A stretch of 39,971 nucleotides of DNA from Leptolyngbya sp. 'hensonii' (GTDB taxonomy: Bacteria; Cyanobacteriota; Cyanobacteriia; GCF-001939115), in contig NZ_MQTZ01000029.1 of the NCBI RefSeq assembly GCF_001939115.1, positions 41,559-81,529 of the forward strand. The letters are read 5' to 3'. Below are positions 1-3,283 of this stretch, piece after piece (the first letter of the stretch is position 1; the number at the start of each line of letters is the position of its first letter). The notes under the pieces were generated by a model, which was given only the letters and a program-made list of their open reading frames with translations, did not search any database and was not told where the DNA came from. The position numbers and the translations under genes were made by a program.

Positions 1-410
1 GTCAAGACTGGTTGGGCTATCTGCTGAGAGACCCCCTCACTCCGTTTCGCATCCGCATTCGGGAAAATCACAACCTCAGACAGGGAAATCGCATCCTCAA
101 AGTCAGTGTTGTCTTTCAGGACTTGAAGCCAGGGGAGCACCGAGTGTTACGCGATAAACGCCAACTTTGGGGCCAGTGGGTTTATATTGTTGCTTTGCGA
201 CTCGAAGACCAGTCCTTGCTCGTCGTTGCGACTCAAAAAGCGCCTCAATCTGCTATTACAGATTACGCCAAGCGGTGGTCGATTGAAACCTTGTTTGGCA
301 TTTTCAAGACTCGTGGCTTATCTCCGCAATATCATGCTCAATTTGGAGCAGAAAATGCCTCAATTTCTCGATGTCCTACAATTTTTGTCCTGTACTTAGG
401 TGAACATTAG
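1..410 (+). pseudogene. IS4-family transposase, C-terminal fragment
   Basis: The frame is open from the left window edge (an in-frame ...QDWLGYLL precedes the first possible start, a TTG at 12) to a stop at 408-410. The segment YAKRWSIETLFGIFK carries the YREK signature of IS4-type DDE transposases (Y-x2-R-x3-E-x6-K), which includes the last catalytic acidic residue. After KTRG the sequence stops looking like the family, and the usual 40-60 residue C-terminal tail is missing. The gene is therefore probably truncated or frameshifted near 310. A second frame (187-399) overlaps this end and may hold displaced coding sequence. The N-terminal part lies outside the window, so a complete element cannot be excluded on that side. 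It is a remnant of an insertion sequence beside an accessory region. Confidence 0.7.
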
Positions 411-828: not shown

Positions 829-1413
829 TTACTCTGCCAAACCGCAAGAGCGGCACATCGGCATATCTTTCATCTCGTATTCGATCACATTACCCACAGC
901 ATCCAGTTCAATTTGGCAGCAGGTTTGCAGCAATGCTCTGAGCTTTTCTCGCCCGCGCTGCACTCGTGATTTTATCCCAGACACTGACATACCTAATTTT
1001 TGAGCGATCGCGCGTTGAGTCAGACCATCTAACTCCGCAAGTTGTACAGCTTCTCGATAGGGTGCTGGGAGATGTTGGAGCAACGGACGCAAACACCCTG
1101 CCATCTCTTGATTAAAAACCACTGGCTCGCCTTCCATCGCTAAAGTCTCTAGGACATTTTCGGACGTAAATTCAGGTTGGCGACCTGCTTTGCGATAATA
1201 GTCAATGATGGCATTACGAGTGATCTGAAAAACCCAGCTTTGCAGGCGATCAGTATCCCGCATCGTCGCTAAGTGCTGATGGATGCGGATCAGTACCTCT
1301 TGCAAAATATCATCAGCATCCGCAGGATGCTTCACCCGTTGCTGGATGAAGCCCCGTAATCGTCGATGAAACTCTTGCCAAATCGGTTTCAAATCACTCG
1401 TTGGGGTTGCCAT
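829..1413 (-). CDS. sigZ: ECF RNA polymerase sigma factor, SigZ-like, with cysteine tail
   Basis: 194-residue ECF sigma-70 factor. Region 2 spans about residues 8-75 (DADDILQEV, then the LQSWVFQITRNAIIDYYR segment typical of region 2.4). Region 4 spans about 105-162 (LPAPYREAVQLAELDGLTQ, then the helix-turn-helix AIAQKLGMSVSGIKSRVQRG). Beyond region 4 is a tail with C165, C166, C187 and C190, the last two as a CRSC motif close to the C terminus. Such tails are known in SigZ-type and some metal-responsive ECF factors, and metal or redox sensing is inferred from this. The ATG at 1411-1413 is chosen because GGAG lies 8 nt upstream; a longer frame to 1488 overlaps the upstream gene. It is second in an operon, 29 bp after the DUF2703 gene. 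Confidence 0.85.
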   Translation of the reverse strand: MATPTSDLKPIWQEFHRRLRGFIQQRVKHPADADDILQEVLIRIHQHLATMRDTDRLQSWVFQITRNAIIDYYRKAGRQPEFTSENVLETLAMEGEPVVFNQEMAGCLRPLLQHLPAPYREAVQLAELDGLTQRAIAQKLGMSVSGIKSRVQRGREKLRALLQTCCQIELDAVGNVIEYEMKDMPMCRSCGLAE

Positions 1414-1442
1414 CTTTGGTTCTCCGCTCCTATCGATTGCTT

Positions 1443-1991
1443 CTATGAACAGCCACAGCCAGTGGAGGCTGTTGGTGTTGTGCCACAAGATGAGGTCTTT
1501 TTCGCCTTATCCTGAAAGAACTGTTGCAGGTTTTGAGGCACCGCGATCGGGCTAGAAACAACCGGAACCGGAGCTTCGTTCTGATAAGTTTCGCGGAGAA
1601 TTGCATCCACAATCAGTCCGACAGGCGCTTCAGTGTAGCTGTTGCCCTGATAGAGCCAGGTACGACACGCCGTTCCTGCCTGGGAACCAGAAATCTCCGA
1701 ACAGTCACCACAGCGACTCTCGGTTGTTTCTAAAATGATATCTCGACCATTGACCCGAATGGTTGGAGAACTAACAAATTGAAGCTGTTTGGCTTGTGCT
1801 TCTGACTCCACCAGAATTTTCTGAAATTGAATAACAGTACCCGTGCTGACGAGAACTTGCTGGACGGTGGCGATCGCTTGCTCAAGATTAGAGAGCGAAC
1901 CAGTACACCGAGAACAAGTGGAGAGATCAAGTGCCAATAATTCGATATTGAGTGTGCGAGAGGATGAGTTCAATGTCATTGTAGGGTTCAT
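1443..1991 (-). CDS. DUF2703-type cysteine-rich protein
   Basis: 182-residue protein resembling the DUF2703 family, thioredoxin-fold-like proteins often found near metal or arsenic functions. What is visible: NIELLALDLSTCSRCTG with a CxxC (C26, C29) after a first beta strand, as in thiol-disulfide folds; SSPTIRVNGRDI, the cis-Pro-like strand region; CGDC at 94-97; C109; and a cysteine-rich end with C169, C179 and C181. No signal peptide is seen, so a cytoplasmic site is likely. The ATG at 1989-1991 is preferred over the GTG immediately before it because AGGAGG lies 6 nt upstream. It is first in a two-gene operon with sigZ. A role as metal or redox partner of the sigma factor is inferred from neighbourhood and shared cysteines; its substrate is unknown. 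Confidence 0.75.
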   Translation of the reverse strand: MNPTMTLNSSSRTLNIELLALDLSTCSRCTGSLSNLEQAIATVQQVLVSTGTVIQFQKILVESEAQAKQLQFVSSPTIRVNGRDIILETTESRCGDCSEISGSQAGTACRTWLYQGNSYTEAPVGLIVDAILRETYQNEAPVPVVSSPIAVPQNLQQFFQDKAKKTSSCGTTPTASTGCGCS

Positions 1992-2096
1992 CACAGTCCT
2001 CCTGTGTTGATGTTCACCCAGATAGACGACGGAGTTTCAGAAAGGACGCAAAGTGGGCAGACATTTTTATGGAGGGGCGAAGGAATATCTGAGGGA

Positions 2097-2187
2097 GCCT
2101 AACACCAAAGCTAAGCGGCGCGCCGGCAACGTGCCTGCGGAGCAGAACGACGCTGATCGGCGCGTCCGCTTGAGCGCCGGGTTGGGC
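2097..2187 (-). other. Integron attC recombination site
   Basis: On the plus strand the site begins GCCTAAC (RYYYAAC, 2097-2103) and ends GTTGGGC (GTTRRRY, 2181-2187). The left inner arm GCTAAGCGG plus CGCGCCG (2110-2125) pairs with the right arm at 2158-2175. That pairing leaves T2165 and G2172 unpaired, the extrahelical bases that orient attC recombination. Spacers of 6 and 5 nt separate the outer and inner boxes, as in known sites. In cassette orientation (minus strand) the crossover box is GTTAGGC. The site starts 26 bp after the stop of the small ORF upstream of it, the normal arrangement of an integron cassette. No integrase gene lies in this window. Confidence 0.88.
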
Positions 2188-2213
2188 AGCCGCTCGCCAC
2201 GACCGATGTGCCT

Positions 2214-2603
2214 CTAGTCTGCATTGGTTGCCCGATACACGATCCATTCCTTGAGGAAGCGTCCGATAAACTCCCTTTGACGATCCAAACCCCACTCCGG
2301 TACTCCAGTCCCCTTGGCGTGGCGTCCACCGTCAGTCGGAGCCAGGTTGTTTGCGGACTTTCTCAATCGCGTGATGTCGTTGTCGCTCACGCCGAGCGCC
2401 TTGACTATCGCGTTACGACCACCGAGGTCGTCCTCCGCGTACTCGTAGATCATGTAGAAATCGGCTGCATTTCGATCTCTCCGCCCGTTCAGCCACAGCG
2501 CATTCGCCAGTTGAATGGAGCGCGCTATAGCGAGCTTTGCCAAGGCGGCGTACGTTTCGACTTCAGATCCGAAAGTGGTGTAGGCGATTGCTGACTCAAC
2601 CAT
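2214..2603 (-). CDS. Integron cassette-encoded protein of unknown function
   Basis: 129-residue protein that I do not recognise. It looks soluble and is predicted mostly helical, rich in Ala and Asp/Glu/Arg, with no signal peptide, no transmembrane stretch and no cysteines. Its C-terminal part contains GVPEWGLDRQREFIGRFLKE. The identification as a cassette gene rests on position: its stop is 26 bp before a complete attC site on the same strand. The ATG at 2601-2603 is followed directly by GTTGAGT, which fits the GTTRRRY cassette-boundary motif; if that is the true left boundary, the start codon would be supplied by flanking DNA or the true start is internal. A second motif match lies at 2739-2745. 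The region 2030-2880 lacks GCGATCGC, unlike its surroundings, which suits an acquired segment. Confidence 0.65.
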   Translation of the reverse strand: MVESAIAYTTFGSEVETYAALAKLAIARSIQLANALWLNGRRDRNAADFYMIYEYAEDDLGGRNAIVKALGVSDNDITRLRKSANNLAPTDGGRHAKGTGVPEWGLDRQREFIGRFLKEWIVYRATNAD

Positions 2604-3283
2604 GATGACACAGTAGAGTCGCTGTGTATCTGCCCTGATTGGGGTGGATCTACAGCAAAGCTCCGCGTATTTTTATATTTCTATACTAGGGAAATAATTT
2701 CAAGTTATTGCTGAGCTTGAGCACCCTGGGACTCAAAGACTCAACGGCACGGACCAGGAAGGCTCGATCGTACCCCTTACAGCACTCATGGGACCATACG
2801 CTGCTCGCTGAACAATGCCGATCGACTTCAACATCGATCGCATGGCTTGCTGCAACGGCACGACTGCATCGGGTGCAGGCAAATGGAGATGCGATCGCAC
2901 GGGTCTCCACCGTCGATCGAGAGACAACGGTTCGCCCTGCATTCAACCTGTCAGGCCCTACATTCGAATGGGGAGATATTGCATTCGAATGCGCTCTATG
3001 GACCACGCTTCAAGCATAAGGAACATTTCAATGTGCAGCCCCTGCATTCGAACTGTCAGGTGCTGCATTTGAATGCGTTCTATAGACCATGCTTCAAGCA
3101 TAGAAAACATTCGAATGTGCGGCTGATGCTGCCCATCTGAGACGGTTTGGCGATCTCTCGGAACCCCAACCTTATTTCGACGTTTAGTTTTGACTATGTT
3201 TGGCAGCCCCATGAAGGCGAAGGTTATAAGCCACTGATGATATCGCCTGAACTTAGTCGTTATCATCGGCATCTTTCAACGGA
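2604..3283. other. Gene-poor accessory stretch
   Basis: Several overlapping frames are open on both strands, but none has a ribosome-binding site, a domain or convincing protein-like composition, and most are produced by the repeat tract at 2935-3120. I support no gene here. It separates the attC cassette from the convergent end of the CBS/kinase/acetyltransferase gene. Confidence 0.5.
2935..3120. repeat. Imperfect tandem repeat tract with ATTCGAAT palindromes
   Basis: Two 56-bp units without indels lie at 2981-3036 and 3065-3120; both carry a TATxGACCAYGCTTCAAGCAT core. They are preceded by related segments at 2936-2970 and 3041-3075 that share CCTGCATTC and CTGTCAGG. The period is 84 bp, or 105 bp where a 21-bp segment containing CATTCGAATG is duplicated. 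The palindromic octamer ATTCGAAT occurs repeatedly and could form small hairpins. Confidence 0.75.

Follow-up and report, generated by a model that had tools for sequence, protein, structure and literature searches.

A gene cassette behind an attI-like leader in a probable decayed chromosomal integron of Leptolyngbya sp. 'hensonii'

An intI-less locus with a genuine attC

We analyzed a window of 39,971 nucleotides from the cyanobacterium Leptolyngbya sp. 'hensonii', i.e., the whole stretch of DNA. It carries a genuine attC site of an integron gene cassette, a 129-aa ORF in the same orientation, an attI-like leader upstream of this ORF, and no integron integrase gene (intI) alongside; complete intI copies stand on other contigs, and nearby there is a second cassette. 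Most likely, this locus is a real gene cassette (the 129-aa ORF and its attC) within a decayed chromosomal integron in which the attI sequence and cassettes were kept and intI was lost. Its features are as follows, in order from the attC through the ORF to the upstream repeats, and then downstream of the attC:

2097–2187, minus strand: attC recombination site, with R'' at 2181–2187, R' at 2097–2103 and extrahelical bases at plus-strand positions 2165 and 2172
2214–2603, minus strand: cassette ORF of 129 aa, no known relatives, stop 26 bp before the attC
2594–2600, minus strand: GTTGAGT, with crossover G|TT, directly after the ATG of the ORF; candidate, unproven 5' edge of the cassette
2610–2760, minus strand: truncated attI-like leader, ~150 bp, without the last ~90 bp, which end CTCTGTACAATAAATTG|TT in other copies
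2761–2950, minus strand: segment common to three other intI-less platforms, with 78–80% identity to those on contigs C27, C23, and C60
2952–3119, no strand assigned: CATTCGAATG / CTTCAAGCATAG repeat of 84 bp, in two copies, from a family otherwise found beside intI 3' ends
1443–1994, minus strand: DUF2703 protein gene (Pfam PF10865, 2.2e-26), first gene of the segment starting G|TTAGGC at the attC
829–1488, minus strand: SigZ-type ECF sigma factor gene (TIGR02959, 4e-64), on the same strand as the cassette
1–403, plus strand: right part of an IS4-family element (NF033591), which breaks up the stretch from the window cassette to a toxin–antitoxin cassette outside the window

The attC site and its ORF

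Read on the minus strand, the 5' part of the attC consists of R'' (GCCCAAC), a 5-nt spacer (CCGGC) and the arm GCT-[C]-AAGCGG-[A]-CGCGCCG, and its 3' part of the arm CGGCGCG-CCGCTT-AGC, a 6-nt spacer (TTTGGT) and R' (GTTAGGC). The outer boxes fit the consensus RYYYAAC / GTTRRRY and the inner arms are complementary. On the folded bottom strand, the extrahelical bases G2172 and T2165 both lie on the L'' arm with six bp between them, as in canonical attC sites. A preliminary description of this DNA, made from its letters, had reported a complete attC here, and its coordinates, boxes, spacers of 6 and 5 nt, and two extrahelical bases were all correct.

In a strict attC template scan, the site scored 21.7, a value found at one site per 57.2 Mb of first-order Markov sequence of window composition and one site per 36.4 Mb of sequence of cassette composition. 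We also evaluated it with an attC covariance model (CM) built from an alignment of 32 other attC sites, taken from the neighbourhood of integron integrases or from cassette loci, in this genome and in others, with the window's attC left out; this alignment displayed strong covariation on the modelled structure (0/500 shuffles reach it). The site scored 38.4 bits (E = 1.8e-7) over model positions 1–86 of 86, and was the only match in the 40-kb window even at E ≤ 10. With filters off, the minus orientation scored 38.4 bits versus 9.2 bits for the plus orientation, indicating that attC and ORF share a cassette-like orientation. Less weight attaches to fold energy by itself (z = −2.2 for the window's minus strand, −2.65 for the plus strand).

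The ORF ends 26 bp from the attC on the same strand, as in ordinary cassettes and as described previously. Its product had been called unrecognised, which held throughout: no match was obtained in Pfam, NCBIfam, PHROGs, PADLOC, or PDB sequences, in plasmids (PLSDB), phages (INPHARED), or IMG/VR, nor in a GTDB pattern scan and 58 related genomes. A single-sequence AlphaFold model of the protein was all-helical, with five helices, and unreliable (mean pLDDT of 45), of too low quality for fold comparison. The candidate 5' boundary fits GTTRRRY and is followed by CAGC, as at other cassette starts in the genome; the attI-like leader ends about 10 bp earlier. Separately, a foreign origin was considered from ORF composition and rejected, as the GC content of the ORF (56%) is <1 sd from that of genome ORFs (mean 54%, sd 4).

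An ORF without relatives and with ordinary GC, next to a palindrome whose fold energy is only modestly special, might also be an ordinary gene beside a chance or unrelated hairpin. We consider this extremely improbable: the template and CM scores are both high, both bulged bases are on the correct arm, the orientation and spacing of the ORF are correct, and an attI leader lies upstream.

The attC is out of line for this genome in its GC content (0.69 vs 0.53, sd 0.04, for the other attC sites), so that it may have been brought in with foreign DNA. Its nearest neighbours by arm sequence are a mix of cyanobacterial and other attC sites. No second copy was found elsewhere in the genome, and a distant blastn search against plasmids returned chance matches only.

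A truncated attI-like leader upstream of the ORF

The block at 2610–3123 has further copies on contigs C27, C23, and C60 of the same genome, and the window leader matches the C60 copy, a full-length type-2 attI, at 84% identity over 168 bp. Overall, four copies of this intI-less block of ~500 bp, composed of CATTCGAATG repeats and attI, were observed (C27:1403–1960, C23:21231–21733, C60:2478–3043, C29:44158–44698). An alignment of the outer ends of the blocks revealed no terminal motif that would explain their spread. Searches for intI by tblastn with IntI were negative for the window, for the 14 kb around it, and for the C27, C23, and C60 loci; no intI remnant was detectable in the segment at 2761–2950.

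The inner part of the block, on the side of the ORF, is a leader that also occurs in two other genera, in genomes G036 and G050 (two loci in the latter). Leader homology in C23, C60, and the three foreign copies stops exactly at ...AATTG|TT or ...AGTTG|TT, and the end of the C27 leader follows the same pattern except that its G reads T. The gene after G|TT differs in each leader copy. On contigs C145 of G036 and C102 of G050, the leader abuts a truncated intI, a position that marks it as attI, and from these sequence comparisons we take the leader to be an attI site, of which the window has a truncated, attI-like copy. The complete intI copies of the genome are associated with another type of attI, whose end follows the same plan, ...CTACTAATAG|TT.

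The window leader diverges from the other copies after CTACTGT, about 90 bp before their crossover. The joint after this motif reads GTCATCATGG|TTGAGTCAGC, and the ATG of the ORF falls within it. There are two options: use of the crossover G|TT at 2600, with divergence or deletion of the attI end, or a deletion that took both the attI end and the cassette start. Under both, the normal crossover of attI has been lost, and the cassette would probably be immobile. No sigma-70 consensus pair fitting the cassette rose above chance within 1995–3283; cyanobacterial promoters may differ from that consensus.

A junction away from the normal attI crossover, in a genome with intact IntI copies, could alternatively reflect an off-target event, in which one of these integrases inserted a free circular cassette at a non-attI (attG-type) position within or next to an old attI block. 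Such insertion is recognised as one way in which attC sites without intI arise (PMC8618304), and attG sites are cited in PMC12901181. This is the main rival to capture at attI, but we deem it unlikely. Had the cassette gone into attI itself, the distal ~90 bp of this site would be expected beyond the cassette, where they are absent, and the flank past the attC begins TTAGGC, like a following cassette in an array.

Cassettes and insertion sequences downstream

Downstream of R', the sequence runs on as TTAGGC, which resembles the start of a next cassette. The DUF2703 gene of this segment is absent from the 58 relatives, and the segment may represent a further cassette that has lost its attC. It is followed by the SigZ gene, the IS4-family element, and, outside the window, a ParE-like toxin–antitoxin pair. 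The full IS4-family element spans L242 6989–7962; its inverted ends, identified by eye, are CCTAAGTAC...GTACTTAGG. The ParE-type toxin–antitoxin cassette lies ~4 kb from the window attC on the same contig (C29) and strand, and another IS has split its attC. Given the TTAGGC start and this toxin–antitoxin cassette, the locus is a small damaged array and not one stray cassette. The earlier label of "lone" therefore fits only in part: the attC and its ORF stand at the truncated end of an attI-like leader, and a second cassette, with a split attC, is found 4 kb away.

Some side observations concern these elements. One IS end (...TTTTTACACAGTCTCTCG) was found at the same 5'-arm position of two different attCs, at L242 5708–6440 (C29) and L241 ~1515 (C37); judging by these two insertion points, the IS behaves as if attC-targeting. 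The attC-targeting IS known so far are those of the IS1111 group. In addition, related ParE-like toxin and antitoxin pairs are present in two different cassettes, at L043 1826–2316 (C60) and L242 6463–6980 (C29).

Since IS4-family and other IS copies flank or interrupt the region, and the leader block is present four times in the genome, one may ask if part of a larger array was moved here by IS activity or by homologous recombination between repeated blocks, with attI and cassette never joined by an integrase at this position. This appears quite improbable, as the attC of the cassette has no other copy in the genome and the leader/ORF junction is without any IS end.

Integrases, attC sites, and cassette genes elsewhere

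Genome-wide, we identified three complete integron integrases, on contigs C35, C36, and C61, along with several intI fragments in the same TIGR02249 search. The scores of the complete integrases, in descending order, are 459.7, 453.2, and 438.9 bits for a TIGR02249 cutoff of 265. The C35 and C61 integrases are about 93% identical to that of C36, and all IntI copies sit on contigs other than that of the window. The attC CM yielded 58 matches across the genome at E ≤ 0.003; many of these are at contig ends, indicating that arrays were broken by assembly. The preliminary description had presented an orphan cassette with no integrase in view, in a lineage that does not as a rule carry integrons. 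These integrases and attC matches contradict it, as do published cyanobacterial integrons (PMC8618304, PMC8352920), though intI was present in only 23 of the 386 cyanobacterial genomes sampled here.

Remnants of intI or intI-less attI copies were also found on C4, C70, C41, C30, and C28, so that such decay is common in this genome, and attI copies without adjoining intI number at least five. Two type-1 attI copies lack a working intI: one on C28 (L223 11285–11420), with an acetyltransferase gene in the place of intI and several attCs behind, and one on C70 (L228 3140–3400), where only 34 intI residues are kept. On C35, the attI of an intact intI is separated from the first cassette, which carries an AIPR-type gene, by a group II intron (L020 10880–11617; domain V RF00029, 63.5 bits). 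Beyond this genome, attC matches are single or paired and placed all round the chromosome in the single-contig cyanobacterial genomes G023 and G021, the latter having no IntI at E ≤ 1e-60. The scatter of cyanobacterial attCs is thus not merely an assembly artefact.

PADLOC families were matched at E ≤ 1e-7 by 13 of the 39 other attC-adjacent ORFs scanned in the genome, as a raw count. These included pAgo, a SAVED-HNH CBASS effector, AbiU, SduA, PtuB, and others; of these matches, that of a response regulator is probably spurious, and a further one or two are weak. At least nine others among the attC-adjacent ORFs are toxin or PIN-domain genes. Individual cassette ORFs adjoining an attC match pAgo (1122 aa, 2073 bits; C40, L225 5176–8544), the SAVED-HNH CBASS effector (C10, L232 1237–2376), SduA (C28, L223 10144–11262), PtuB (C58, L229 3160–3819), and SoFic (C49, L237 523–1737). 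As a lead only, defence genes seem abundant among the cassettes of this cyanobacterium. A defence or toxin–antitoxin role for the 129-aa protein is a guess from this company, and since many cassettes match anti-phage or toxin–antitoxin families, unknown cassette proteins are reasonable candidates for defence screens.

Proposed history and relation to known integrons

An integron integrase folds the bottom strand of an attC and joins the attC to attI, by which the cassette is set behind the leader. At this locus, we propose that an integron integrase would have recombined the folded bottom-strand attC with attI, so that the cassette came to follow the attI leader, oriented for read-through, and may have been expressed from that leader. 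Intact IntI copies that could act in trans are those of C35, C36, and C61. The integrase gene of the locus would then have been lost. As the intI-free block is common to four loci, a single intI loss before copying is probably the simplest order. Insertion sequences would later have broken up the cassettes behind the leader, and deletion of the attI crossover would probably have frozen the cassette in place. Evidence against this history comes from the 5' edge of the cassette, which is not clean (GTCATCATGG stands before the candidate TT), from the GC of the attC, atypical for the genome, and from the lack of a consensus promoter suited to the cassette within 1995–3283.

CALINs, an IntegronFinder class, are attC sites lacking a neighbouring integrase; intI loss is one published route to their formation, and the default threshold of IntegronFinder 2 for a CALIN is two attC sites (PMC9024848, PMC8618304). 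The locus resembles CALINs and degraded chromosomal integrons in having attC and cassettes with no intI alongside. It differs in that only one attC is intact, the second, 4 kb off, being split by an IS, in that a recognisable attI-like leader is kept, and in that complete intI copies are present elsewhere in the genome. Cyanobacteria are one of 11 taxa with attC models (PMC8352920), and the locus shares with cyanobacterial chromosomal integrons the IntI family (TIGR02249), attC geometry, and G|TT junction rule. However, the window attC is GC-richer and more fully paired than the other attCs of the genome, and resembles attCs of other phyla as much as cyanobacterial ones. The aadA-type 60-bp attC of class 1 integrons comprises a 5-nt spacer, 3 bp, an extrahelical base, 6 bp, an extrahelical base, and an inner helix. 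The spacing of the window attC is identical, but its centre is longer (91 vs 60 nt) and its gene unrelated.

By itself, the cassette adds one more attC and one unknown protein to a known class. The setting matters more, with three integrases, 58 attC matches, and at least five intI-less attI copies. We tentatively raise the possibility, doubtful as it is at present, that the integron of some cyanobacteria is a distributed one: attI platforms would have multiplied once they had lost intI, and several of them, scattered over the chromosome, would each serve as a landing and expression site for defence and toxin–antitoxin cassettes moved in trans by the IntI of a few complete copies, and the window locus would be one such platform, jammed by its crossover deletion. 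Overall, the locus is best placed among decayed chromosomal integrons, a known class, and the many intI-less attI platforms in one genome are the part worth following, as this genome offers a natural case for asking whether integrase-less attI platforms can be served in trans.
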